From Paraflavitalea soli (GTDB lineage Bacteria > Bacteroidota > Bacteroidia > Chitinophagales > Chitinophagaceae): a stretch of 64,000 bases of DNA. Location of the stretch: assembly GCF_003555545.1 (NCBI RefSeq), contig NZ_CP032157.1, positions 7,940,546-8,004,545 on the forward strand. The letters are read 5' to 3'. The notes under the pieces are model-generated. The model was not told the origin of the DNA, did no database searches, and was given only the letters and a program-made list of their open reading frames with translations. Below, piece after piece: positions 32,587 through 45,044 of the stretch (its first letter is position 1; each line of letters begins with the position of its first letter). Position numbers and translations under genes: made by a program.

Positions 32587-33234
32587 ACTAAACGTTTTAT
32601 TTATACCCCGGCCCTCTTCAGTTTGCATAAGTGGTTGACATATAATGCAATTGAAGCTGGGGAGGCCCGTATTGTAGTAGAATCCAGTGCTGCTTAAAAG
32701 ATAGTAGGCCGTTTACAAGCATCGGGCTATTACAAAGATTGCAGGCTGCTTCAAGGTAACAGGCTGCCTATATCAATAATCAAAGCTACACCTGAGGAGG
32801 CGTGACTCGCCAAACCGCAAGCTGCGTAAGTCAATGATAAAGAGCGCAGAAATGAAATTGACGTCGTTGCGAAAGTAAAATAGAAGTGTGTTTTAATCAA
32901 TAATCAAAGCTACACCTGGGGAGGCGTGGGCTGGCAGGCTCCCGCAATAAGCGGGAGAGCGATCGGGCCTGCCTTGATTTTTTGGTTCTTTTGCATCAAG
33001 GCAAAAGAACGAAGCGATCTGCATCAAGGCAAAGAAAGTGACAAACCTCTTGCCACAAAACTTGGATTATTTACCTTCGCGCCTGTTTCCATGCCAGCTT
33101 GATCTACGTCAAATCGCCAGTAAGCGAAAAGAAAGCTGCCCATGCCCCACCAGGAGGGCAGTCAGCCGGGAACATCACAATTATTTAAACCAAAACTAGC
33201 CCTGGGCATTGATCAGAAGCTGTAATCTTGATAT
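32587..33234. other. Spacer with partial and full two-hairpin element
   Basis: A partial copy of the element (32780-32830, only the AAAGCTACACCTG..GAGGCGTG start) precedes the full copy at 32905. From 33013 to 33234 I see only short A+G-rich sequence and, just before the next gene, TAATCTTG (33221), one base off a -7 box. Confidence 0.5.
32905..33012 (+). repeat. Two-hairpin element, copy 1
   Basis: Starts AAAGCTACACCTGGGGAGG. Hairpin 1: GGCAGGC (32933-32939) with GCCTGCC (32967-32973), enclosing an inner TCCCGC/GCGGGA stem. Then CTTGATTTTTTG and hairpin 2: GTTCTTTTGC (32985-32994), loop ATCAAG, GCAAAAGAAC (33001-33010). Confidence 0.85.
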
Positions 33235-34167
33235 ATGAAAGGAACGAAAGAAGTAATCGAACTGGTTTTAATTGTAGCCCTCATCGTGAGCTGTCACGCC
33301 ACCCGCAAAACCACCAACGAGGTGCAAACCACAGATAAGCCGAATACCTCAATCGATCTGCCTTCTTTCGACAAAGAAGCCCACCGCGGCGGCCGTGGCC
33401 TGATGCCCGAAAACACCATCCCCGCCATGCTGCACGCCATCGACCTGGGTGTCAACACCCTCGAAATGGATGCCGTGATCACCAAAGATGGCCAGGTCAT
33501 CCTGTCCCATGAGCCATTTTTCAGCGCCGCCATCGCCACAAAGCCCGATGGTACCCGCGTCACCCCCCAGGAAGAGCGCAGCCTGAATATTTTCCAGATG
33601 ACCTATGCCGAAACCCAGCGTTACGATGTGGGCCTGGCCGTCAACCCCGGTTTTAAGGATCAGCAAAAACTGGCTGCCACCAAGCCCTTGCTCAGTAAAG
33701 TGATCGACTCCGTCGAAGCCTATACCAAAAAGAAAAAGAGCACCCCTGTATTTTACAATATAGAGACCAAGACCAATCCCAGGACCGACAACCAATACCA
33801 TCCCGCTCCCGAAGAGTTTGTAGAAAAACTGATGGCTGTCATTCTTCAAAAGCACATCGAAGACCGCGTTATCATCCAGTCTTTTGACTTCCGCACCTTG
33901 CAGATACTGCACACCAAATACCCCGCCATCAGGACCGCCGCCCTCGTGGCTGACAACAAGGGCCTCGAAGAGCACCTGAAGCAACTGCAATTCATCCCCA
34001 CCATTTACAGCCCCCTGTATACCCTGGTCAAACCCGAACTGGTAACCCAATGCCACCAACAGAAGATCAAGGTTCTCCCCTGGACCGTCAACGACAAACC
34101 CACCATCGAAAAACTAAAAGCCCTCGGCGTCGACGGCATCATCTCCGATTACCCCAATTTATTCTAA
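33235..34167 (+). CDS. Glycerophosphodiester phosphodiesterase, lipoprotein
   Basis: GDPD enzymes split glycerophosphodiesters to glycerol-3-phosphate and an alcohol. The 310-residue protein begins with a lipoprotein signal (VLIVALIVSC, Cys20) and has the family core HRGGRGLMPENT (50-61, His50 and Glu59), LEMDAV (76-81, Glu77 and Asp79) and SHEPF with His92. The C-terminus KALGVDGIISDYPNLF is typical of GDPDs. It is probably fixed to a membrane facing the periplasm. It is a single-gene unit between repeat zones. Confidence 0.92.
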   Translation: MKGTKEVIELVLIVALIVSCHATRKTTNEVQTTDKPNTSIDLPSFDKEAHRGGRGLMPENTIPAMLHAIDLGVNTLEMDAVITKDGQVILSHEPFFSAAIATKPDGTRVTPQEERSLNIFQMTYAETQRYDVGLAVNPGFKDQQKLAATKPLLSKVIDSVEAYTKKKKSTPVFYNIETKTNPRTDNQYHPAPEEFVEKLMAVILQKHIEDRVIIQSFDFRTLQILHTKYPAIRTAALVADNKGLEEHLKQLQFIPTIYSPLYTLVKPELVTQCHQQKIKVLPWTVNDKPTIEKLKALGVDGIISDYPNLF

Positions 34168-34834
34168 CAGCCTCCTCACCGAAGTAAAAGATTACCGACT
34201 GTCGACTGCTGACTGCCAATTGCCAATTGTCGGTTCGCGACTGCTGATTCGCGATTGCCTCATATTGCCATTTTTCCTTTTGTTGTATCTCAACCTTTAT
34301 TGTCATCCTACCCTTTGGTTGTCATTCGACTCTTTGTTGGAATCCTGGCCTTTGTTGTCATCTCTCCCTTTCTTGTCATCCTACCCTTTGGTTGTCATTC
34401 CACTCTTTGTTGGAGTCCTGGCCTTTGTTGTCATCTCTTCAAGTGTTGTCATCCCTTCCTTTCTTGTCATCCCGACCGTAGGGAGGGATCTGCTATCGAA
34501 GCAAAACTAGTCCCACTCCGTCGAACCCATTTCCGCTTCACAGCTTAACTATTTCGTCAATATCTGAAGAAGTGATTTATGAACAATAAATAACCAGTGA
34601 GCAACAAGTACTCCGGGATACTGCATTGGAGAGATCCCCCAATCAGTCTGTTGCCAGCAGTGATCCGTTCCACAGCATAAAAAGCCTGTATTTAATAAGC
34701 AAAGCCGCACCGGGGGAGGAGTTGGCCCGCCAGGCCGCCCGGAGGGATCGGGCCTGGCTTGATTTTTTGGTTCTTTTGCATCAAGGCAAAAGAACGAAAA
34801 GAATACCTTTGCCCCATTTCCAAACCCATTCTAT
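34168..34834. repeat. Repeat mosaic between GDPD and SDR genes
   Basis: In order: degenerate GCCGACT heptads (34189-34258); two 73-bp tandem units (34301-34373, 34374-34446) of TTGTCATCCTACCCTTTGG and following; a GTCATCCCGACC..GAAGCAAAAC unit (34448-34507); a CAATAAATAACCAGTGAGC segment (34580); and the two-hairpin element (34700). No gene is supported; the hydrophobic frames here are read from the repeats. Confidence 0.8.
34700..34796 (+). repeat. Two-hairpin element, copy 2
   Basis: AAAGCCGCACCGGGGGAGG, hairpin 1 GCCAGGC (34729-34735) with GCCTGGC (34752-34758), then hairpin 2 GTTCTTTTGC (34770-34779), ATCAAG, GCAAAAGAAC (34786-34795). It ends 40 bp before the SDR start codon. Confidence 0.85.
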
Positions 34835-35620
34835 ATGAATACCTCACTACAGGGAAAGACCGCCGTCATTGGCGGCAGCACACAGGGCATCGGCCTCGCC
34901 ATCGCACAGGAACTGGCCGCCCTCGGCGCCACCTGCATCCTGCTGGCCCGCAATGAGCAGTCACTGCAGGCCGTCACCGCTGCCTTGCCCACACCATACC
35001 AGCAAACCCACAGCTATCAGGTAGCCGATTTCGCTCATCCCGGCCAGGTGAAGCAGGTCATCACTGCCATTGTAGCCGTTACCCCCGTACATATATTGAT
35101 CAACAATACCGGTGGCCCGCCTCCTGGCCCCATCACCGAAGCCACCGGAGAGGCCTTCCTCGCTGCTTTCAACCAACACATTATTTGCAACCAGCTCTTG
35201 GTGCAGGCCGTGATCCCCGGTATGAAGCAGGCTGCTTATGGGCGCATCATCAATGTGATCTCTACCTCGGTGCGGATACCCGTTAAGAACCTCGGCGTGT
35301 CCAATACCATTCGCGGCGCTACCGCTTCCTGGGCCAAGACCATGTCCAACGAGCTTGCTGCTTTTGGCATCACCGTCAACAATATATTGCCCGGTTATAC
35401 CAAAACCCAGCGCCTCGACAGCCTCATACAGAGCAATGCCGCGAAGCGCAACGTAGCCCCTGCCGTCATTGAAGAAGAGATGTTGAAAGAGATACCCGCG
35501 AAGCGTTTTGGCGATGCCGCAGAACTGGCCGCTGTTGCAGCCTTCCTGGCTTCCCCCGCTGCCGCCTACGTCAATGGTGTCAGCATCCCCGTCGACGGCG
35601 GCAAAACCGGAACCATATGA
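34835..35620 (+). CDS. SDR family oxidoreductase with atypical active site
   Basis: The 261-residue protein has the NAD(P)-binding GGSTQGIG (13-20), ILINNTGGPPPGP (about 86-98) and C-terminal VNGVSIPVDGG. The active-site Ser is present in NVISTSVR, but at the position of the YxxxK motif it reads SNTIRGATASWAK: Tyr is Asn and Lys is Arg. A sister group of SDRs shares this change, so activity as a normal dehydrogenase is doubtful. ATG 34835 fits the family start. The gene is flanked by two-hairpin elements on both sides. Confidence 0.88.
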   Translation: MNTSLQGKTAVIGGSTQGIGLAIAQELAALGATCILLARNEQSLQAVTAALPTPYQQTHSYQVADFAHPGQVKQVITAIVAVTPVHILINNTGGPPPGPITEATGEAFLAAFNQHIICNQLLVQAVIPGMKQAAYGRIINVISTSVRIPVKNLGVSNTIRGATASWAKTMSNELAAFGITVNNILPGYTKTQRLDSLIQSNAAKRNVAPAVIEEEMLKEIPAKRFGDAAELAAVAAFLASPAAAYVNGVSIPVDGGKTGTI

Positions 35621-35828
35621 TGAACTATATAAAGCTATCAAAGTCAGTTATTATTCAATAAGCGGTTCATCATTCATTCAAAGCAAAGGTGGTAACTGAT
35701 GGACAATGATAAACGAGCAATGAATAGGCCGTTCATTTAACCACCTAAAGCTAAAGTGCTAAATGATAAGAATGCAACGAGACAGGCCTTTCATCAACCA
35801 TTTAAAGCAAAGGCTATAAGTAATAAGT

Positions 35829-35928
35829 GATCAAAGCCGCACCCGGGGAGGAGCTGGCCAGTCTGGCCGCCCGGAGGGATCGGGCCAGACTTGACTTTTT
35901 GGTTCTTTTGCGTCAAGGCAAAAGAACA
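35829..35928 (+). repeat. Two-hairpin element, copy 3
   Basis: AAAGCCGCACCCGGGGAGG, hairpin 1 GTCTGGC (35861-35867) with GCCAGAC (35884-35890), hairpin 2 GTTCTTTTGC (35902-35911), GTCAAG, GCAAAAGAAC (35918-35927). Confidence 0.85.
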
Positions 35929-36041
35929 GAAGAAAAAAGTGCCGCAGGCACCCCTGCCCAAAGAAAAGAGGGATCGAAAGCACAGAAGATCGAAAGAATA
36001 GAGGATCAAAAGAACAAAAACCTATCAAAGCAAACGGTTTT

Positions 36042-36112
36042 ACCTAACAGCTAAACGCTAACAGCTAAAAGCTAACAGCTATCAGAGCTAACCGCTAAAA
36101 GCTAGTAGCTCT
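36042..36112. repeat. Heptanucleotide repeat, TAACAGC/TAAAAGC family
   Basis: About nine consecutive 7-mers (TAACAGC, TAAACGC, TAAAAGC and variants), ending 18 bp before the kynU start codon. Other members: 41558, 49652, 52338, 54570 and 56488. Confidence 0.85.
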
Positions 36113-36129
36113 AAAAAAAGCAACCACCA

Positions 36130-37410
36130 TTGGAAAACAATCTCCCATACGCACAAAGTCTCGACGCCCAAGATCCCCTGGCCCCCTTCAGGAACGAATT
36201 CCTCATCCCTGAACACAAGGGCAGTCAGCAGATCTACTTCCTCGGCAACTCCCTCGGTCTCCAACCCCGGCGCACCCAGGCCCGCCTCCAGGAGGTATTA
36301 AATGCCTGGGCCCAATACGGCGTAGAAGGTTTTTTCATGGGCGGGCAACCCTGGCTCCAATACCACGATACCCTTACCGCACCACTCGCTACCATCGTAG
36401 GCGCCCTGCCCCATGAAGTGGTGGTGATGAACCAGCTCACCGTCAACCTCCATTTGCTAATGGTAAGTTTTTACCGGCCCCAGGGCCGCCGCCGCAAGAT
36501 CATCTGCGAGGCCAAAGCTTTCCCCAGCGACCAGTACATGTTCGAGACCCACGTAAAGCACTTGGGTTTCCATCCCGAAGAAGTGATCATAGAAGTAGGT
36601 CCCAGGGTAGGGGAGCACACCATCAGAACAGAAGACATCCTGCAGGCTATAGATCAGCACAAAGACGAGCTCGCCCTCGTATTATGGGGCGGCATCAATT
36701 ATTATACAGGTCAGTTGTTCGATATGTCTGCCATTGCCAAAGCAGCCCAGGCCGCCGGTGCAAAGGTCGGCTTCGACCTTGCCCATGCAGCCGGCAATGT
36801 GCCCCTGCAATTGCACCAGTGGAACGTCGACTTTGCCTGCTGGTGCAGTTACAAGTACTTAAACTCAGGTCCCGGCGCCATTGGCGGCGTGTACATCCAT
36901 GAGCGTTACCACCACGATCCCGAGATACATCGTTTTGCCGGTTGGTGGGGATACCAAAAAGATACCCGCTTCCTCATGCAAAAAGGCTTTGTGCCCATCC
37001 CTTCTGCCGAAGGCTGGCAACTCAGCACACCTTCCCTCTTGTTGTATGCTGCCCACAAAGCAGCCCTGGAAATAGTGAGCGAAGCAGGGTGGGACCAGCT
37101 CCAGCAAAAAAGAAAAAAACTCAACGACTGGTTATGGTTCCTCCTCGAAGACCTCGAAAAAGCCACTGGCGGTGCAGCCATTGAGTTCATCACCCCGCGT
37201 GAAGAAACAGCCCGCGGCTGCCAGGTGTCCATGCTCATGTTGCGTGATGGCAAGCAGCTATTTGACCAGCTCACTGCCGCCGGCATCATGGTCGATTGGC
37301 GCGAACCCAATGTCATTCGCCTCGCCCCCGTACCTTTGTACAATACCTTCGAAGAGGTCTGGCGTTTTGTGGATACCTTAAAGAAATTAATAGAACAACA
37401 GGTAAAGTAA
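36130..37410 (+). CDS. kynU: Kynureninase
   Basis: KynU is a PLP enzyme that splits kynurenine or 3-hydroxykynurenine to (hydroxy)anthranilate and alanine. The 426-residue protein starts at TTG 36130 (MENNLPYAQSLDAQDPLAPF), has FLGNSLGLQPR (37-47), FFMGGQPW, the PLP-binding block FDLAHAAGNVPLQLHQWNVD and the lysine segment CSYKYLNSGPG (near 240). No other tryptophan-catabolic gene is adjacent, though a glutaryl-CoA-type dehydrogenase lies 5 kb away. The TTG is accepted because no ATG gives a normal N-terminus. Confidence 0.94.
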   Translation: MENNLPYAQSLDAQDPLAPFRNEFLIPEHKGSQQIYFLGNSLGLQPRRTQARLQEVLNAWAQYGVEGFFMGGQPWLQYHDTLTAPLATIVGALPHEVVVMNQLTVNLHLLMVSFYRPQGRRRKIICEAKAFPSDQYMFETHVKHLGFHPEEVIIEVGPRVGEHTIRTEDILQAIDQHKDELALVLWGGINYYTGQLFDMSAIAKAAQAAGAKVGFDLAHAAGNVPLQLHQWNVDFACWCSYKYLNSGPGAIGGVYIHERYHHDPEIHRFAGWWGYQKDTRFLMQKGFVPIPSAEGWQLSTPSLLLYAAHKAALEIVSEAGWDQLQQKRKKLNDWLWFLLEDLEKATGGAAIEFITPREETARGCQVSMLMLRDGKQLFDQLTAAGIMVDWREPNVIRLAPVPLYNTFEEVWRFVDTLKKLIEQQVK

Positions 37411-37420
37411 AAAGGCTTAC

Positions 37421-37463
37421 GTACCGGCCAATTGCCGATTGCCGATTCACGACTGCCGATTTA
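37421..37463. repeat. Heptanucleotide repeat, ATTGCCG family
   Basis: CCAATTGCCGATTGCCGATT, then CACGACTGCCG: the same 7-mers as at 1932. It separates kynU from pyrF. Confidence 0.85.
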
Positions 37464-37488
37464 AAATAATAAGTACAAATAAAAAATA

Positions 37489-38292
37489 ATGACACGCAAA
37501 GAACTCATAGAACAGATCCGCCTCAAAAAATCCTACCTCTGCGTAGGCCTTGATACCGACATCACCAAAATACCCAGGCATTTATTATCTTCCCCCGAAC
37601 CCGTATTCGAGTTCAACAAGCGCATCATCGATGCCACCAAAGATTATTGCGTCAGCTACAAGATCAACACCGCTTTTTACGAAGCCCTTGGCCTGGTAGG
37701 CTGGGAAGCCATGGAAAGGACCGTCGATTACATTCCGTCCACCCACTTCACCATCGCCGATGCCAAGCGCGGCGATATTGGCAATACCTCCTCCCAATAT
37801 GCCAAAGCCTTTTTCGAGACCCTCAACTTCGACGCCATCACCGTAGCCCCTTACATGGGCGCCGACAGCGTCAGGCCCTTCCTCGAATACCAAGACAAAT
37901 GGACCATCCTCCTCGGCCTCACTTCCAACAGTGGCGCAGCCGATTTCGAACTACAGCAGGCAGGAGAAGGACTCCTCTATGAAAAAGTATTGACCACTGC
38001 TGCACAATGGGGCACGCCCGACAACCTCATGTATGTGGTAGGCGCCACCCAAAGCGATTGGTTTACCAACATCCGTAAATTGACCCCCGATCATTTTTAC
38101 CTCGTGCCCGGTGTGGGTGCCCAGGGCGGCAGCTTGAAAGAGATCTCCGAAAAAGCCATGAACAACGATGTGGGCATCCTCATCAATGCCAGCCGCGCCA
38201 TCATCTATGCTTCAGATAAGGAAGATTTTGCAGAAAAAGCCAGCGAAGTAGCCAAAGAGTACCAGGCAGAAATGGCTACCTATTTGAAGTAA
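37489..38292 (+). CDS. pyrF: Orotidine 5'-phosphate decarboxylase (subfamily 2)
   Basis: PyrF makes UMP from OMP, the last step of de novo pyrimidine synthesis. The 267-residue protein has LCVGLDTD (17-24), YKINTAFYEALG, the catalytic IADAKRGDIGNTSSQYA (about 85-101), VAPYMGADSV and LVPGVGAQGG near the end. Length and motifs fit the long bacterial subfamily. It stands alone after kynU with a repeat between them. Confidence 0.95.
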   Translation: MTRKELIEQIRLKKSYLCVGLDTDITKIPRHLLSSPEPVFEFNKRIIDATKDYCVSYKINTAFYEALGLVGWEAMERTVDYIPSTHFTIADAKRGDIGNTSSQYAKAFFETLNFDAITVAPYMGADSVRPFLEYQDKWTILLGLTSNSGAADFELQQAGEGLLYEKVLTTAAQWGTPDNLMYVVGATQSDWFTNIRKLTPDHFYLVPGVGAQGGSLKEISEKAMNNDVGILINASRAIIYASDKEDFAEKASEVAKEYQAEMATYLK

Positions 38293-38361
38293 TAGCCATT
38301 ATTGATTATTACCAGCAGTCAGCAACTAATAATCAATAATTAGTAATCAATAATCAACCAA

Positions 38362-38709
38362 TTACAACCCCAATAACTTTTTGGTTTTTGCGGGAAGTTT
38401 CGCCGCCGTGAGCGTATAAGCTTGCTGCGCAAAATACGTCCATTCCTTTTTGTTCAGCCGGTTGATATCATCCACATACACCCATTTGTAGCGCGCCAGA
38501 TAAGGAGCTGGTTTAAACCCCGTCCGGCTGCTCACTTCATCAAACTCCTCATCCGATACTTTGAACGAGGCCGTCACCGGTACCATATCCGGCGACGTCA
38601 CCAGGAACATTTTATCACCCACATTAAAACAAAGATGATTCTCCCATTTAATATCTTCTGTCATACCCTTGAATTGTTGACAGATCGATTGTATCCCTTC
38701 AATCGTCAT
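38362..38709 (-). CDS. MmcQ/YjbR family protein
   Basis: The 115-residue protein starts MTIEGIQSICQQFKGMTEDI and continues KWENHLCFNVGDKMFLV, FKVSDEEFDEVSSRTGFKPA, YKWVYVDDINRLNKKEW. These match the MmcQ/YjbR (CyaY-like fold) family, often described as DNA-binding, with no settled function. A TAGATTTG box lies 17 nt upstream of the ATG. It is a single gene facing away from pyrF's end. Confidence 0.88.
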   Translation of the reverse strand: MTIEGIQSICQQFKGMTEDIKWENHLCFNVGDKMFLVTSPDMVPVTASFKVSDEEFDEVSSRTGFKPAPYLARYKWVYVDDINRLNKKEWTYFAQQAYTLTAAKLPAKTKKLLGL

Positions 38710-39145
38710 AACAAATGTTTAGGCGACAAATCTACTCCTAATCCCGAAACCAACCACCTGCTACAACAACCCCCTACAACAATCAGTTACAGCTTCCGAT
38801 AAATCCGCCCCTTTCCTGTTAGTCATCAACCCACACCTGAAGAATCCTAAATCCTAAATCCTAAATTCTATAATAAAAAAACGGGGCAACACCCGTTTCC
38901 GGGGCACCCCGCCTGTAGAGAGTCGTTCGACTCTGCTGACTGCAAGACTTGAACTTTGTTTTGCTGGCTATTACTTTCTGCGCTTGGCCGGCTTTCACCT
39001 GGCCTATAAAAAAATTAGATAATACGCTAGTCTTCCTTCATCCCACAGCTAGCACCAAACTCTTGTATTCTAAATGCTGGATGCTATATGCTCGATTCTG
39101 TATTCTGTATTCTGTATTCTATATTCTGTATTCCGTATTCTCTCC
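38710..39145. repeat. Intergenic region with ATCCTAA and ATTCTGT heptads
   Basis: ATCCTAA repeats four times at 38846-38872, and ATTCTGT-type 7-mers run from about 39075 to 39143, up to the stop of the next minus-strand gene. Between them is a GGGGCAACACCCGTTTCCGG segment without clear structure. The MmcQ promoter is at 38727-38734. No gene. Confidence 0.8.
38727..38734 (-). promoter_or_regulatory. TAnnTTTG -7 box of the MmcQ/YjbR gene
   Basis: TAGATTTG on the minus strand, exact consensus. Confidence 0.5.
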
Positions 39146-40132
39146 CTAAATATTCCTCGTCTTCTCCTTCCTTTTCTTATCATCCGCATTCACATCAAAG
39201 TCAATATTATGACCGATCGTTACATCACCAAAGCTGGCTTTTACCCGCACACGCGTATTGCCGCTGCCTGCTTTACCCGAATAATGGAAGTCAAACTTAG
39301 GGCCGCTCCGGTCATCATCATCCCCTTCCTTCTTGATGTCAAAGCTCGTTTTGTTCTTCACATCACAAAAGCTCGTGCTGATGTCGAAGTTGGCCGATAG
39401 GTTCGTATTGACGTCCAGGTACAATTGAGTAAAGCTGTTCTTAATATCAATGTTTTTAAGGTCGTTTTCCACACCCAGCTTCACGCTGCTGTGTTCAAAA
39501 TTCGCTTTCACATCACCCGACAGGTTGTTGACCAGCCCACGGGAGAATTTGATCGTGAGGCTGCCGCCCACCATGCTGCCAATAGTGGCTTTGCCAAACT
39601 CTACATTCACATTGCCTTCACCGCTCAGGTTGCCCGCTGTCAGGCTGCCGAATTTACTTTCCAGCCATATTTTTCCTTTAAAGTCACCGATCGATAGAGG
39701 GCCAAATTCATTGCGGGCGTCTACAGTGCCCGAGGCCGGTACATACACCACATAATCAATATGGAAACTTTGCTTTTCACCCTTGCCCCGGTCATTGTTA
39801 TTGTTGTTGCCGATCTTCGTCTTGAAGTACACCCCGCTGCCACTCTTGCCATCCTGGATATTGATAATGTCCAGCAGTTGCTGCGCCCGTTCATCCGAGC
39901 CCGCTTCCGTCGTGATCGTCACATCTACTTTCACTTCACCCTTGTCCCAGGTACTGATCTTCATCTCTCCAAACTGATTGCTCAGCGAGATCTTGTCCGA
40001 GTTGCTCACAGCATACGATTTGCTGTACGTCTTTTTCTTCTCCACCATGGGGTCCCCTGCAGCCATTACCTGTGTCCCAAATGCCAGCGCAGTGATCAAT
40101 AAGGTTACTCTATACGCTTTTTGAATTTTCAT
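39146..40132 (-). CDS. DUF4097-like secreted adhesin/beta-helix protein
   Basis: The 328-residue protein has a signal peptide (about 1-25) and a long run of short beta-strand repeats such as ISLSNQFGEMKISTWDKG, VDARNEFGPLSIGDFKG, WLESKFGSLTAGNLSGEG and VNVEFGKATIGSMVGG. This periodic pattern is that of DUF4097 proteins, which form beta-helices. It ends in a charged tail. It is the last gene of a three-gene operon, overlapping the anti-sigma-like gene by 23 bp, so it is probably an envelope product or sensor of that sigma system. Confidence 0.82.
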   Translation of the reverse strand: MKIQKAYRVTLLITALAFGTQVMAAGDPMVEKKKTYSKSYAVSNSDKISLSNQFGEMKISTWDKGEVKVDVTITTEAGSDERAQQLLDIINIQDGKSGSGVYFKTKIGNNNNNDRGKGEKQSFHIDYVVYVPASGTVDARNEFGPLSIGDFKGKIWLESKFGSLTAGNLSGEGNVNVEFGKATIGSMVGGSLTIKFSRGLVNNLSGDVKANFEHSSVKLGVENDLKNIDIKNSFTQLYLDVNTNLSANFDISTSFCDVKNKTSFDIKKEGDDDDRSGPKFDFHYSGKAGSGNTRVRVKASFGDVTIGHNIDFDVNADDKKRKEKTRNI

Positions 40133-40724
40133 CGCTTCCCGATTTAGATTTTTTGATTTGTTGAATGATCTGGAGCTGTTGATTCAGTAATTCCGTCTGC
40201 AGTCGTAAATTCTGTATCATCGCTTCCAGCAGTTGTTCCCGGTTGGCATTCGTGGGCAGCTCCTGCTTCAAAGCATTGTAAGAACTGTCCAGTTTTGTAA
40301 TGTCACTTAGGAACTGTTTGTATAAGGCAGGATTATCCTTTTCTATTTGCTTCAGCTCGTTTTGCTTCAGTTCAATGAGCTGTGTGAAATGGTACACTTC
40401 TTTCGCATACGTTGGGTCGATGTCCTTGAGCAGTACATCACCCTCATCTTTCTTAGGTGTTTCTTGGGTCCTGGCCACCTTCGGATCATTAGTTGAGGTG
40501 GATGTTTGTGGATTGAACAAATGGAAAACCCCCAGTCCGGCCAATACCAGTATAGCCGCGGCAGCACTCCACCGCACGATCGTCGTCATCGTGAATACTT
40601 TCCCTTTTTTTTCAGGCGCGGGTACCAGTTCCTGCTCCAGTTTCTTCCAAACCTGTGGGCCTGGTTCTTCTGAATCAAATTCATCCCGGTGGTCACGCAT
40701 AAATTGTTCTAAACCGTTGCTCAT
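40110..40724 (-). CDS. Anti-sigma-factor-like membrane protein
   Basis: The 204-residue protein has a soluble N-terminus (EQFMRDHRDEFDSEEPGPQV), one membrane helix at about 50-68 (VRWSAAAAILVLAGLGVF) and a periplasmic coiled coil (ELKQNELKQIEKDNPALYKQ). It starts within the end of the upstream sigma gene (ATGA overlap at 40721-40724). That arrangement and topology fit a membrane anti-sigma factor, although no ZAS zinc motif is visible. It should hold the sigma factor at the membrane until an envelope signal arrives. Confidence 0.78.
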   Translation of the reverse strand: MSNGLEQFMRDHRDEFDSEEPGPQVWKKLEQELVPAPEKKGKVFTMTTIVRWSAAAAILVLAGLGVFHLFNPQTSTSTNDPKVARTQETPKKDEGDVLLKDIDPTYAKEVYHFTQLIELKQNELKQIEKDNPALYKQFLSDITKLDSSYNALKQELPTNANREQLLEAMIQNLRLQTELLNQQLQIIQQIKKSKSGSDENSKSV

Positions 40725-41287
40725 GACAATCCTCCTTGTTTTATTATCGTCAGTAATTTTTGTTTCGCTCTTACATATTGCGTACGCACCGTATTGTGCG
40801 TGATACCCAATATGCCTGCTATTTCTTCATGGTCATAGCCCTCCAGCAGGTAGAGGCTGATCACCGCCCGGTAGCCATCCGGCAGCTTTTGTATCGCTTT
40901 CTTCACATTCGCTACCTGGTACGCCAGTTCCGCTTCGTCCACTTGTTCTTCCTGTGCCAGCGCCATTACCCCGTTATCACTATCCTCATCGATCTCTACA
41001 AGATACCCCCGCCTTTTACGCAGCGTATTGATCGACTTGTTGATCACGATCTTCTTCAACCAGGCCCCGAAGGTCGAGCGGTAGTGAAAATCATTCAACG
41101 ATCGGAAGGCGTCCAGGAAGGCTTCCTGTAATACGTCTTCTGCGTCTGCCGAATTGTTCACGATCCGTAGACTCGTGTTGTACATCGCTTTGGAATATCG
41201 TTGGTATAACAATTGATAGCTCAGGCTGTCACCCTGTTTACATCGTTCTACCAATTCATCCCGGATAGTGTTTGCAGTCAGCTCCAA
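40721..41287 (-). CDS. ECF-type RNA polymerase sigma factor
   Basis: The 188-residue protein has region 2 (LYQRYSKAMYNTSLRIVNNSADAEDVLQEAF, with DAEDVLQEAF at 48-57) and region 4 (LPDGYRAVISLYLLEGYDHEEIAGIL, then THNTVRTQYVRAKQKL). It lacks a signal-receiving extension. It heads an operon with the anti-sigma-like gene (4-bp overlap) and the DUF4097-like gene. ECF sigma factors often control their own operon. ATG 41287 gives a normal N-terminus. Confidence 0.93.
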   Translation of the reverse strand: MELTANTIRDELVERCKQGDSLSYQLLYQRYSKAMYNTSLRIVNNSADAEDVLQEAFLDAFRSLNDFHYRSTFGAWLKKIVINKSINTLRKRRGYLVEIDEDSDNGVMALAQEEQVDEAELAYQVANVKKAIQKLPDGYRAVISLYLLEGYDHEEIAGILGITHNTVRTQYVRAKQKLLTIIKQGGLS

Positions 41288-41637
41288 AATGAATGTTTTA
41301 ATTGTTGTTCAGTATAAGAGACATAGACATCGAAAGGATGTTGCATTTCAGCTAAAAATAATTGAACATACCTGAATTAGCGTTTCGCGTGTCGGGTGTA
41401 GCGTGTCGGGTTGCTCCGCGTTTTGGACTTACTTTCAATTACTTATTTACCAACACCCACTTGCTTTTGCAGGAAATCGCAGGTAATAATGCTGTTACAC
41501 CCAAAGAACCCGAAACCCGAAACCCCAAACACAAAACCCGAAAACATATCCATAACTGCCTAACAGCTAACACCTAAAAGCTAACACCTATTAGCTATTT
41601 TTCCTACTTTAGCACCATATTGTCAAAACCAGTTACC
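41288..41637. repeat. Divergent region with AACCCGA element and TAACAGC heptads
   Basis: It holds the inverted-arm element copy 2 (41387-41545) and TAACAGC/TAACACC heptads (41558-41602). TACTTTAG near 41611 is one base from a -7 box and fits the gene starting at 41638. Confidence 0.7.
41387..41545. repeat. Inverted-arm element of AACCCGA heptads, copy 2
   Basis: Left arm GTTTCGCGTGTCGGGTGTAG and on; right arm AACCCGAAACCCGAAACCCC and on. The arms are degenerate inverted copies with about 95 bp between them. Confidence 0.75.
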
Positions 41638-42819
41638 ATGGCCGCCAAAACCGATCAGTTCGTTAGCCCCGATTACTTTGCCCTCGATGAATTGTTGACC
41701 GAAGAGCAGAAACTCATCCGCGAATCCGTCCGCAATTACGTCAAAAAGGAGATTTCCCCCATTATTGAGGACTATGCCCAAAAGGCCGAGTTTCCTCAGC
41801 AGATCGTAAAGCAATTGGGCGATCTGGGCTGCTTTGGCCCCACCATCCCCGCCGAATACGGCGGTGGCGGCCTCGATTACATCAGCTACGGCCTCATGAT
41901 GCAGGAACTCGAGCGCGGCGATAGCGGCGTTCGTTCCACCGCCTCCGTACAGGGCTCCCTTGTCATGTTCCCCATTTATGAATATGGCAGCGAAGAACAG
42001 CGCCACAAATACCTGCCCAAACTCGCCAGCGGCGAATGGCTGGGCTGTTTCGGCCTCACCGAGCCCGACCACGGTTCCAACCCTGCCGGCATGCTCACCA
42101 ATATCAGGGACGCCGGCGATCATGTCATCCTCAACGGCGCCAAAATGTGGATCTCCAACGCTCCCTTTTCCCAGGTGGCTGTTGTTTGGGCCAAAGATGA
42201 ACAAGGCGACATCCGCGGTGTTATTGTTGAGCGGGGTATGAAGGGGTTTTCCACCCCTACCACCCATGGCAAATGGAGCCTGCGCGCTTCAGCCACCGGT
42301 GAGCTCGTATTCGACAATGTAGCCGTACCCAAAGAGAATATATTGAACGTAAAAGGACTGAAAGGTCCCTTAAGCTGTTTGACAAGGGCCCGTTATGGCA
42401 TAGCCTGGGGATCCGTAGGTGCCGCCATGGATTGTTACGATACCGCCCTGCGCTATTCACTCGAGCGTGTGCAGTTTGATCGCCCTATTGGTGCGTTCCA
42501 GCTCCAGCAGAAAAAACTGGCCGAGATGATCACCGAGATCACCAAAGCCCAATTGCTCAACTGGCGCCTGGGCGTATTGATGAATGAGCACAAAGCCAGC
42601 CCCCAGCAGGTGTCCATGGCCAAGCGCAATGGGTGCGAGATCGCAGCCAATATTGCCCGCGATGCCAGGCAGATGCTCGGCGGCATGGGCATCACCGGCG
42701 AATATTCCATCATGCGCCACATGATGAACATCGAAAGCGTCATCACCTACGAAGGCACCCACGATATCCACCTCCTCATCACAGGAATGGACGTCACCGG
42801 CCTGAACGCATTCAAGTAA
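41638..42819 (+). CDS. gcdH: Acyl-CoA dehydrogenase, glutaryl-CoA dehydrogenase-like
   Basis: The 393-residue flavoenzyme has the N-terminal helical domain, GCFGLTEPDHGSNP (about 140-153) and WISNAPFSQVAVVWAK in the FAD/substrate region, LTRARYGIAWGSVGAA (Arg of the glutaryl-binding group) and the catalytic Glu in TYEGTHDIHLLI. Overall it is closest to glutaryl-CoA dehydrogenases, which convert glutaryl-CoA to crotonyl-CoA in lysine and tryptophan breakdown. ATG 41638 is preferred over TTG 41620, which lies close to the probable promoter. The sub-family is assigned with moderate certainty. Confidence 0.88.
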   Translation: MAAKTDQFVSPDYFALDELLTEEQKLIRESVRNYVKKEISPIIEDYAQKAEFPQQIVKQLGDLGCFGPTIPAEYGGGGLDYISYGLMMQELERGDSGVRSTASVQGSLVMFPIYEYGSEEQRHKYLPKLASGEWLGCFGLTEPDHGSNPAGMLTNIRDAGDHVILNGAKMWISNAPFSQVAVVWAKDEQGDIRGVIVERGMKGFSTPTTHGKWSLRASATGELVFDNVAVPKENILNVKGLKGPLSCLTRARYGIAWGSVGAAMDCYDTALRYSLERVQFDRPIGAFQLQQKKLAEMITEITKAQLLNWRLGVLMNEHKASPQQVSMAKRNGCEIAANIARDARQMLGGMGITGEYSIMRHMMNIESVITYEGTHDIHLLITGMDVTGLNAFK

Positions 42820-42850
42820 CAGTAATAGGGTAGAGGCGTAACACCCTTCG

Positions 42851-43180
42851 TTGTCATTCCGAACGCAGCGCAGCGTAGTGAGGAATCTGCTTGCGATGCA
42901 AACGCTCGAAGCAATCGTCTCGAAGCAAACAGATCACCCTTCGTTGTCATTCCGAACACAGCGAAGTAAACAGTTCTTACTTTGTTGTCATTCCGAACGC
43001 AGCGCAGCGTAGTGAGGAATCTGCTTGCGAAGCAAACGCTCGAAGCAATCGTCTCGAAGCAAACAGATCACCCTTCGTTGTCATTCCGAACACAGCGAAG
43101 TAAACAGTTCTTACTTTGTTGTCATTCCGAACGCAGCGCAGCGTAGTGAGGAATCTGCTTGCAAAGCAAACGCTCGAAGC
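42851..43180 (+). repeat. 134-bp tandem repeat of GTCATTCCGAACG family
   Basis: Units start at 42851, 42985 and 43119, a period of exactly 134 bp, 2.5 copies, nearly identical. Each contains TTGTCATTCCGAACGCAGCG, GTAGTGAGGAATCTGCTTGC, GAAGCAAACGCTCGAAGC and TTCCGAACACAGCGAAG. High identity shows a recent duplication. Confidence 0.9.
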
Positions 43181-43186
43181 AAAAGA

Positions 43187-43240
43187 TTCCCGACTGCCGA
43201 CTGCCGATTCACGATTCACGATTGCCGACTGCCAACCAAA
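43187..43240. repeat. Heptanucleotide repeat, ACTGCCG/ATTCACG family
   Basis: ACTGCCG, ACTGCCG, ATTCACG, ATTCACG, ATTGCCG, ACTGCCA in perfect 7-bp register, ending 14 bp before the GNAT start codon. Confidence 0.88.
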
Positions 43241-43253
43241 CCAGCAACATCCA

Positions 43254-43748
43254 ATGAGTTCAACCGAGATCATAGAATACGACCTACAATACCAGCAGGA
43301 AACCATCGACCTCATCGTAGGTATCCAGGCTGGCGAATTTGGCGTTCCCATCACCGCCGAAGACCAGCCCGACCTCCGCAACGTGCACGCCTTCTACCAA
43401 CAGCGCAATGGCAATTTCTGGCTCGCCATCGACAACAATAAAGTAGTAGGCACCATTGCCCTCATCGATATTGACAATAACCAGGTAGCTTTGCGCAAAA
43501 TGTTCGTCCACCCCGATTACCGCGGTAAGGACAAGGCAGTCGCCTGGCAATTGATGCAGGAGGTATTTGCCTGGTGCAGATTAAAAGGAGTGAAAGAGAT
43601 CTTTCTGGGTACCATCAGCCAGTTCCAGGCCGCACACCGCTTCTACGAGAAGAATGGTTTCCGGGAGATTAAGAAGGAGCAATTGCCCCCCGCATTCCCG
43701 GCCATGCCCCTCGACATTATTTTTTATACATATTCTTTCGATAAATAA
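43254..43748 (+). CDS. GNAT family N-acetyltransferase
   Basis: The 164-residue protein has the GNAT fold: VVGTIALIDIDNNQVALRKM (beta4 with motif A start), FVHPDYRGKDKAVAWQLM (acetyl-CoA loop, here RGKDKA, slightly off the usual Q/RxxGxG/A) and LGTISQFQAAHRFYEKNGFR (motif B). Substrate unknown. ATG 43254 is chosen; the frame upstream is open only because it reads through repeats. The shikimate kinase gene begins 6 bp after its stop, so the two are probably cotranscribed with the next gene. Confidence 0.9.
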   Translation: MSSTEIIEYDLQYQQETIDLIVGIQAGEFGVPITAEDQPDLRNVHAFYQQRNGNFWLAIDNNKVVGTIALIDIDNNQVALRKMFVHPDYRGKDKAVAWQLMQEVFAWCRLKGVKEIFLGTISQFQAAHRFYEKNGFREIKKEQLPPAFPAMPLDIIFYTYSFDK

Positions 43749-43754
43749 CAGCAG

Positions 43755-44264
43755 ATGAGGATTATCCTGATAGGTTTCATGGGCTCTGGAAAGACACACT
43801 GGGGAAAACAGGTGGCCCACCGCCTTCAATTGCCCTTCTTCGACCTCGATGAAGAAGTGGTGAAAGCCGAAGGCCAGTCCGTCACCGATATCTTTGCCAC
43901 CTTTGGCGAAGAACATTTCCGCCTCAAAGAAAAAGAGACCCTCGAAAGACTGGTAGAAGAACATGAATCACTCGTCCTCTCCTGTGGTGGTGGCACTCCC
44001 TGCTTTTTCAACAACATCGATTACATGAAAAAAGTAGGTATCGTCGTTTGGCTCAATACCCATGTCGATGTGCTCCTCCAGCGCCTGCTCAAAGAGAAGG
44101 CCAAGCGTCCCCTCATCAAGGATATCGACGACGATGGCTTGCGCGCCTACATCATCCGCAAGCTCAACGAGCGCCGGATGTACTATGAGCAGGCCGATGT
44201 CGTCCTCGACAAGGAAGATGCCATTTCCATGAATGATTTTATTCAAACCGTTTTACATGCATAA
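43755..44264 (+). CDS. aroK: Shikimate kinase
   Basis: AroK phosphorylates shikimate on the way to chorismate. The 169-residue protein shows the P-loop GFMGSGKTHWG (7-17), the shikimate-binding DLDEEV (near 32), EEHFRLKEKETLERL (Arg near 57), SCGGGTPCF (near 77) and the lid RPLIKDID (near 117). It starts 6 bp after the GNAT gene and its last 8 bp overlap the start of the DUF423 gene, indicating one transcript of three genes. Confidence 0.95.
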   Translation: MRIILIGFMGSGKTHWGKQVAHRLQLPFFDLDEEVVKAEGQSVTDIFATFGEEHFRLKEKETLERLVEEHESLVLSCGGGTPCFFNNIDYMKKVGIVVWLNTHVDVLLQRLLKEKAKRPLIKDIDDDGLRAYIIRKLNERRMYYEQADVVLDKEDAISMNDFIQTVLHA

Positions 44265-44643
44265 AGGATTTTTGCTCACGTCCACTTTGCTGGGCGCCCT
44301 GTCTGTGGCCCTCGGTGCTTTTGGCGCCCATGGCCTCAAAAAACTCGTACCCGTAGAGACCATCGGCACTTTTGAGACCGGTGTCCGTTACCAGTTTTAC
44401 CACGTTTTCGCCTTGCTGGCAGTAGCCATCTTAATAGAGAAGTTTCCCGGCGATTGGATGCGCTGGGCCGGTATCCTGTTCATTATTGGCATCATTCTCT
44501 TTTCAGGCTCTTTATACATCCTCACTGCCCTCAAAGCCACCAATACCGTTGGCCTCAGCGGCATCGGCGCCATCACCCCCTTCGGCGGCCTCTTCCTGAT
44601 CGCCGGTTGGATCGCCATGTTCGTCGCCATCATTAAGAAGTAA
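44257..44643 (+). CDS. DUF423 family membrane protein
   Basis: The 128-residue protein begins MHKGFLLTSTLLGALSVALG and carries AFGAHGLKK, ETGVRYQFYHVFALLAV and GIGAITPFGGLFLIAGW, with four membrane helices. This is DUF423 (YgdD-like), function unknown. It starts at ATG 44257, inside the end of aroK (ATGCATAA), so translation is probably coupled. It is the last gene of the operon. Confidence 0.9.
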   Translation: MHKGFLLTSTLLGALSVALGAFGAHGLKKLVPVETIGTFETGVRYQFYHVFALLAVAILIEKFPGDWMRWAGILFIIGIILFSGSLYILTALKATNTVGLSGIGAITPFGGLFLIAGWIAMFVAIIKK

Positions 44644-44913
44644 GCGATAAACGATCAATAGACAGTGCGAAATAAATAAAGTGAGCTATTAGTAACCACT
44701 GGACAATAAAGCTCAGTGGGCAATAAGTAGTCAGTGTGTATTAAATAACCGCGGGCAACAAATAGTCAGTGGGTAAAAGGTAATAAATAGTCGGTGGGCA
44801 ATGAAAAATCAGTGAGTAATAAATTCTCAACGACCCCGCATAGGAGTAACCTACAATACCAGCCGTCGCCGGCATGCATCCACTTCAAAGCATAAAAGCC
44901 CATATTTAGTAAC
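44644..44913. repeat. Degenerate AATAGTCAGTGGGCAAT repeats
   Basis: From 44655 to 44830 a unit of about 20 bp, (C)AATAAATAGTCAGTGGG, recurs around seven times with drift. Similar pieces lie at 34580 and 35700. It leads into two-hairpin element copy 4. Confidence 0.65.
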
Positions 44914-45010
44914 CAAAGCAAAACCTGGGGTGGCGTGGGCGGCAAACCGGCCGGAGGCATTCGGGTTTGCCTTGATTTTTTGGTTCTTTTGCATCAAGGC
45001 AAAAGAACAG
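44914..45010 (+). repeat. Two-hairpin element, copy 4
   Basis: AAAGCAAAACCTGGGGTGG, hairpin 1 GGCAAACC (44941-44948) with GGTTTGCC (44964-44971), hairpin 2 GTTCTTTTGC (44983-44992), ATCAAG, GCAAAAGAAC (44999-45008). A short second GCATCAAGGCAAAAGAAC follows at 45018. Confidence 0.85.
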
Positions 45011-45044
45011 AAAAAATATGCATCAAGGCAAAAGAACGGAAGCC

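Follow-up and report, generated by a model that had tools for sequence, protein, structure and literature searches.

Several families of small, strongly structured interspersed repeats have been described in bacteria, including BOX, RUP, SPRITE and ERIC (PMC3049150) and CIR, RUP and YPAL/RU-2 (PMC2229807), and in the Bacteroidota the miniature inverted-repeat transposable elements (MITEs) BrickBuilt and 464/PgRS of Porphyromonas gingivalis are short, non-coding, intergenic and multi-copy, with inverted ends in some lineages (PMC4596501). Here, we describe a repeat of comparable character in a 64,000-nucleotide stretch of Paraflavitalea soli (assembly GCF_003555545.1, contig NZ_CP032157.1, positions 7,940,546 to 8,004,545; hereafter the window), which carries four copies, all on the plus strand. 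A further likeness is that some of the repeats in PMC3049150 and PMC2229807 are co-transcribed with neighbours and show orientation effects, but those repeats belong to other phyla, have other sequences, and are described there without the word pseudoknot. BrickBuilt differs in being described by internal 23-nt tandem repeats, and PMC4596501 likewise does not use that word. REP/RAYT repeats are also extragenic palindromes with variable stems, but the present element is far longer and showed no link to Y1 transposases. H-type pseudoknots with major-groove triples (telomerase RNA, SAM-V) share its topology, with a U-rich linker beside an A-U-rich stem; the present element differs from them in having no loop 3, and any third-strand pairing in it is indistinguishable from a direct repeat.

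The repeat is real, covarying and mobile-looking, and pairing between its linker side and the loop of its second stem is a new point. An earlier note, made from the letters of the window, had recognized two hairpins and overlooked that the linker-side bases are complementary to the stem-2 loop and change together with it. Because its sequence keeps changing under maintained pairing of the interlocking stems, the element probably works through a folded RNA or a single DNA strand.

Structure and copies of the element

Read 5′ to 3′, the element consists of a head (CAAAGC..CACCTGGGGAGG), stem 1, a segment A, a T-rich linker, and the segments B, A′ and B′. Stem 1 is a variable hairpin that terminates on the C opening A, which reads CTTGA(T/A/C). 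Stem 2 arises from pairing of B with B′; it encloses the six-base loop A′, which is reverse-complementary to A. The helices A/A′ and B/B′ interleave in the order A-linker-B-A′-B′, which is a pseudoknot topology. In copy 2 (core 34700..34795), the stem-1 arm GCCAGGCC (34729..34736) pairs with GGCCTGGC (34751..34758), the final C of which doubles as the first base of A (CTTGAT, 34758..34763); the linker TTTTTG (34764..34769) is followed by B (GTTCTTTTGC, 34770..34779), A′ (ATCAAG, 34780..34785) and B′ (GCAAAAGAAC, 34786..34795), and the complementarity of A and A′ is accompanied by covariation. Copy 1 (core 32905..33010), which runs from the head through A and the linker to stem 2, has GGCAGGC/GCCTGCC as stem 1. 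The corresponding arms are GTCTGGCC/GGCCAGAC in copy 3 (core 35832..35927), where A/A′ shows a compensated change to CTTGAC/GTCAAG, and GGCAAACC/GGTTTGCC in copy 4 (core 44914..45008).

The four copies thus lie where the earlier note had placed them, each with the complementary stem 1 it described. Its observation that stem 1 differs in every copy holds within the window but not genome-wide, since copy 4 and a copy at 8340899 are identical in stem 1. Stem 2 and the linker, which it took to be constant, are not: stem 2 varies outside the window, and the loop and the linker-side A differ in copy 3. A covariance model built from five genome copies and searched against the 8.44-Mb genome gave 18 matches at E <= 1, of which eight were strong (E <= 1.6e-16), one was weak (2.7e-7), and nine had E >= 0.01 and lay mostly on the reverse strand of the same sites. 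A head-plus-linker pattern scan of genome contigs returned no match.

Covariation of the two interleaved helices

Covariation was found for both interleaved helices. The model alignment contained 150 A-to-B′ modules, 103 of them distinct, in which 98.7% of A/A′ cells are paired; this figure overstates the general pairing rate because in all 14 seeds A′ already matched A, with G-U allowed, the selecting model itself knowing the B/B′ pairs only. The covariation of A/A′ does not depend on that matching. Among the 103 distinct modules, 50 A/A′ cells were double-changed against 12.8 in shuffled controls (standard deviation 2.8), and the covariation score was 0.240 against 0.080, values reached in none of 500 shuffles; slid structures, used as a further control, paired only 22-44% of cells. 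For A/A′ and B/B′ together, 207 double-changed cells were counted against 45.4 shuffled. Less striking was the number of A/A′ pairs showing double change (2 versus 1.1 shuffled; 41 of 500 shuffles). Most of the signal comes from a single pair (U-A 50, C-G 25, A-U 22); the neighbouring pair adds three double changes, and the other four pairs hardly vary and say little.

A blind scan of 84,980 species genomes used a pattern that fixed B, B′ and the linker but not A or A′. It located at least 118 cellular stretches; counted with three viral contigs that match the pattern, these give 134 places in 121 loci. Among the matches listed, 92 of the 134 places pair at five or more of the six A/A′ positions. 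Counted by distinct combination, again among the matches listed, 28 of 54 do so (shuffled mean 12.2, maximum 19 in 1000), and complete pairing over the six positions is seen in 11 (shuffled mean 2.9, maximum 9). These results indicate that A/A′ pairing is far above chance, though about half of the distinct combinations are without it. In a separate parse of 104 unique modules, A6-A′1 was paired in 94.6% of the 93 with six-base loops, compared with 39.9% in shuffled controls (maximum 53.8% in 2000); because TTG was required at A2-A4, only A1, A5 and A6 are free tests in this parse.

When 47 elements from five genomes were aligned, in an alignment fitted to the structure, 96.3% of stem-1 cells were paired and seven of eight pairs had changed on both sides, while one inner pair failed in 11 of the 47. 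With both stems combined, 179 cells were double-changed (53.5 in shuffles) and the covariation score was 0.575 (0.195 in shuffles), each exceeding all 500 shuffles. The earlier note's reading of stem 1 as strongly covarying is borne out by comparison with chance, but further pair types are about as numerous as in shuffles (27 versus 25.6; 146 of 500 shuffles). An alignment-free test covered 45 of the 56 matches in four genomes (two were excluded by hand, and nine had no module according to the finder). Six or more contiguous Watson-Crick pairs were present in 44 of these 45 native elements, with 14 distinct arms, as against 29% of 1712 chimeric arm combinations, and in all but one of the 45, stem 1 ends two nucleotides or less from where A begins. 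Further copies, which the earlier note had set as a test, keep stem 1 paired. Across the phylum, the contiguous-stem test of the outer stem is weak (114 elements; eight or more pairs in 12% of native against 1.4%; mean 4.9 against 4.5). Upstream bodies have a mean folding-energy z of -2.58 (111 bodies) against -1.46 in 60 control gaps, the controls being negative too.

Linker length and strand

If both helices form in one folded strand, as in an H-type pseudoknot, linker length is expected to follow stem-2 length. Among the 104 unique modules the two are correlated (Pearson 0.90, slope 0.73 nt per bp): the linker is 6 nt with a 10-bp stem 2 in 62 of 69, 7 nt with 11 bp in 10 of 12, 8 nt with 12 bp in 4 of 4, and 9-10 nt with 13-14 bp in 16 of 16, although the long forms come from few lineages and the 104 modules are not independent cases. 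Mispairs favour the plus strand, with 16 G-U against 5 A-C (binomial p 0.027); nine of the sixteen G-U sit at one pair, from nine different loci. A stem-2 G-U excess of 25:2 in the separate parse, which accepted G-U, is not used as evidence. Read on the minus strand, the same letters would presumably give a more usual pseudoknot with an A-rich loop. Third-strand pairing of the linker was indistinguishable from a direct repeat of stem 2 (mean match 0.86 versus 0.89); by eye, linker C is frequently opposite G of the purine arm, for which a direct repeat accounts equally.

Distribution of the wider family

The first model, applied to 29 genomes (the host's own and relatives), found matches in nine. 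Within the genus (genomes G001 to G004 in our numbering), G002 had 17 matches and G004 five, and G001 and G003 had none. With a module-only model, for which at most 32 candidates per genome were scored, 56 of 198 genomes of the phylum, the host included, matched at E <= 1e-4. The 80 titles listed for the blind-pattern matches are mostly Bacteroidota (Flavobacterium, Chryseobacterium, Elizabethkingia, Mucilaginibacter, Parabacteroides, Saprospiraceae), with Clostridia, Oscillospiraceae, Peribacteria, Neomarinimicrobiota and others among the remaining lineages. No phage matched the module, three viral contigs matched by pattern, and plasmids gave a single 34-base match. Modules are non-coding and intergenic, 70 of 72 in the window-family set and 137 of 138 in other lineages lying outside predicted open reading frames (ORFs).

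Members beyond the window's family have a different 5′ body, consisting, by eye, of long nested stems that often place GGC..GCC or GAC..GTC immediately before TTGAN. Likeness among the five G004 copies extends some 107-116 nt upstream of the core and about 50 nt past its end. Kaistella antarctica has eight pattern matches within units of ~355 nt that lack long ORFs (none over 90 aa except one inserted gene), and one 271-nt stretch there folds at z = -5.7. These units form a tandem array (L253 1400-6300; L numbers denote our loci) with a module per unit, interrupted by an epimerase-like gene, and a similar module spacing was seen in G107, G122, G095 and G151.

Searches against Rfam gave no match above the gathering cut-off in the window and none at the module in 16 loci; at E <= 5, nothing in four loci came near any gathering score. 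Flavo-1 RNA (RF01705) matches L187 6113-6197 and L219 4555-4631, ~1-3 kb from the module on the same contigs. No description was found in the literature searched, with most subscription journals and supplements outside its reach, and a published list of candidate RNAs (PMC8040213) could include the module. The earlier note had named a match to a described repeat as grounds for refutation; none emerged from Rfam or the literature searched. The family is apparently undescribed, large and mainly from Bacteroidota.

Evidence for mobility

Copies 1-3 occupy the same sites in G002. In G001, G003 and G004, gene order is kept, the gaps are short, and no element is present at the sites of copies 2 and 3 or after the Mrp-like ATPase gene near copies 1-3; by eye, the copy 4 site has no element in any of G001-G004. 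Many near-identical dispersed copies were found in G190, G065 and G198. At one site common to the congeners G190 (L348) and G065 (L392), a ~530-bp element lies in opposite orientation, reflecting either inversion between inverted ends or two insertions.

In G017, a genome from a related genus, 7 of 25 copies have both 23-bp inverted ends (type GGCTAATTCTTATTTTGA) at a fixed distance, allowing up to 7 mismatches to a consensus derived from those copies; end-to-end length is 348-359 bp in six and 399 bp in one. Perfect 9- and 10-bp flanking repeats accompany two of these seven and none of the 42 cross pairs, when shifts of at most 2 are permitted. Elsewhere, inverted ends were seen in about 5 of 23 g71 copies and clearly in one of 17 G198 copies, which has a 12-bp end pair and a 9-bp flanking repeat that lies two bases away from one of the ends. 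Membership in the class bounded by terminal inverted repeats rests on core homology for the window, G002 and G004 elements because no ends were found there. MITE membership is likely, on good grounds for some G017 copies and by homology only for the window. Inverted module pairs that seemed to bound a large element (L200, L266) were rejected, the enclosed genes being host genes. At the Y1_Tnp loci L148, L160, L167 and L173, dense short palindromes flank the gene, of its own type at each locus (at L148, GCCCC..GGGGC with TACC and TTTGTAG); these are apparently repetitive extragenic palindromes (REPs) belonging to those genes.

Orientation relative to neighbouring genes

Using a crude ORF-based gene caller, we examined 72 elements of the window family, 67 with both neighbours. 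In tandem-gene gaps, 37 were co-directional and 7 opposite (p 5e-6); convergent gaps held 13 elements and divergent gaps 10. The tandem-gene ratio was 20:1 in G017 and 17:6 in the remaining genomes (p 0.035). In other lineages the ratio was 43:24 (p 0.027), with 19 convergent and 9 divergent gaps. That set comprised 138 of 314 matches listed, with window-family members, weak matches and some duplicate entries excluded; 42 of the 138 were lost at locus edges and one lay inside an ORF. The orientation bias and the G-U excess suggest that the plus-strand RNA matters. Stem 1 plus TTGATTTTTT resembles a terminator; in G198, the place taken by the outer stem in some copies is filled by a GC hairpin in others. 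In G017, 24 of 25 copies are followed by a gene on their own strand; a role as 5′ leader of that gene is doubtful because promoter-like TAnnTTTG sites lie 3′ of some copies.

Surroundings of the window copies

By Pfam, the neighbours of copies 1-3 are Mrp-like ATPase, GDPD, SDR and kynureninase genes, and copy 4 adjoins a histidine kinase gene. Three of the four copies are indeed 40-225 nt upstream of a plus-strand gene, as the earlier note pointed out, but this position is not diagnostic because all four are also 212-533 nt downstream of one. Residual A′-B′ halves were seen by eye directly 3′ of copy 1 (TGCATCAAGGCAAAGAAAGTGAC, 33020..33042, plus strand) and copy 4 (TGCATCAAGGCAAAAGAAC, 45019..45037, plus strand). 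The half after copy 1 is of a long-stem type that agrees with the stem-2 type of G002, which suggests that newer versions replace older ones in place. An older, truncated head without stem 2 (AATCAAAGCTACACCTGAGGAGGCGTG, 32778..32804, plus strand, by eye) precedes copy 1.

Small hairpins of the TCCCGC..GCGGGA and CTCCAAAGGAGTCC..GGGA types occur inside stem-1 or stem-2 loops of some copies: in the stem-1 loop of copy 1 (TCCCGCAATAAGCGGGA, 32940-32956, plus strand), in G002 (L096, L098, L099, L100, L102) and in G017 (L074, L081, L108). This looks like the work of an even smaller element with hairpin loops as its target. Further degenerate intergenic repeats crowd the same gaps of the window, at 36030-36115 (AACAGCTAAAnGCTA), 34267-34470 (TTGTCATCC type) and 44700-44830 (CAGTGAGTAATAA); these gaps are short in congeners. 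A promoter-like TACCTTTG (34804-34811) begins 8 nt past the end of copy 2, ahead of the SDR gene, and the motif also precedes SDR in the congeners G001, G003 and G004.

Discussion

The earlier note proposed an undescribed RNA family or a structure-based mobile repeat, and this is supported by a structure that covaries, a multi-copy and patchy occurrence, and relatives of which some have transposon ends. We interpret the elements as widespread MITE-like mobile repeats with a covarying pseudoknot that would spread in trans and act as a plus-strand RNA 3′-end module, a reading to which we assign a probability of just under 0.6. Non-autonomous copies would spread via a transposase acting in trans. 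The folded strand would be plus-strand RNA, produced as transcripts run into the element, and its fold (strong hairpin, U-run and pseudoknot) may stop or protect the 3′ end of the entering transcripts, which is the step we hold least firmly. Such a stop or protection would insulate the element and its neighbours, and insulation would explain the survival of a mostly co-directional orientation between tandem genes. A functional RNA is supported only indirectly, by G-U over A-C mispairs and by orientation.

Several observations weigh against this interpretation. Among the combinations listed in the blind scan, 26 of 54 pair at four or fewer of the six A/A′ positions, so the stem-2 hairpin also exists without the second helix. 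The plus strand leaves zero unpaired bases between A′ and B′, which strains standard H-type geometry; the two helices may alternate instead of coexisting. The bias in orientation is weak once one genome is set aside, its p values ignore shared ancestry, and elements lie between divergent genes too (10 of 67). Preceding genes without a terminator of their own are no more frequent at elements than at controls within 80 nt (3 of 43 versus 28 of 206; Fisher p 0.31), 120 nt (5 of 43 versus 31 of 173; p 0.37) or 200 nt (6 of 42 versus 31 of 118; p 0.14), and a generic terminator scan was near background (24 versus 15.0, standard deviation 4.8). As for mobility, 18 of the 25 G017 copies have no good ends, copies in the window, G002 and G004 have no consistent transposon ends, and no target duplication was found in the window subfamily. 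Neither a longer element nor a transposase partner was found, all 11 matches to the G017 ends (three mismatches or fewer, in one draft genome) being at short elements. Finally, three congeners do without elements at these sites, which gives no evidence of a host need.

The structure could instead belong to the host, as a terminator or mRNA stabiliser that is retained at genes and spreads by recombination only, not as a transposon. The hairpin ends at a U-run, each of the four window copies follows a plus-strand gene, two Tannerella modules each lie 3′ of a gene on their own strand, and the GDPD-SDR gap that holds an element in the window and G002 has ordinary terminators in G001 and G003 (by eye). 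We nevertheless think this rather unlikely, given the inverted ends and target duplications in G017, the near-identical dispersed copies, tandem arrays and absence in congeners, and the ordinary terminator that comes before the element in G005. An extension of the RNA reading is a portable 3′-end module in which the pyrimidine linker would form a third strand along an A-rich stem, carried phylum-wide in unlike mobile repeats, where it protects or ends transcripts and in places replaces a gene's terminator; this form we hold unlikely. Covariation might also be neutral, if template switching between hairpin arms during replication, a mechanism in print (PMC8794818), keeps arms complementary without selection. 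Whole stems that differ as modules in G198 and the arm-sized remnants after copies 1 and 4 are in keeping with it, but two interleaved helices would need simultaneous upkeep, and template switching predicts neither the relation of linker to stem-2 length nor the preponderance of G-U over A-C, which makes it distinctly unlikely as the explanation.

Two further readings draw on known systems. In REP-like elements of a Y1 (RAYT/IS200) transposase, stems would covary as the enzyme reads the fold, and the present repeat has structured, variable stems. IS200/IS605 elements use guide-target pairing, which the complementarity between loop and upstream bases resembles. Yet 30 Y1_Tnp loci, searched about 1.5 kb on each side, gave no convincing copy (one match, E 0.87), Y1_Tnp genes are present in G001 and G003, both without the element, and several Y1_Tnp flanks bear other short palindromes (nine loci, by eye). 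The G017 ends with their 9-10-bp duplications suit DDE transposases better than Y1 elements, and we regard a Y1 origin as very unlikely. Integron-like attC sites bounding gene cassettes would likewise be defined by structure; the window copies share one orientation, single genes lie between three of them, and arrays occur elsewhere. This explanation is extremely improbable, as gene order is unchanged in genomes without the sites (G001, G003, G004) and the units of the Kaistella array have no long ORF.

A widespread, multi-copy, strongly covarying structure that the Rfam and literature searches did not turn up would fill a gap in the intergenic annotation of Bacteroidota. Termination in Bacteroidota is poorly understood, and if the pseudoknot acts on RNA, the natural insertions with compensated stems would be ready-made experiments on transcript ends. 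The link between fold, orientation and mobility makes the persistence of structured repeats directly testable.

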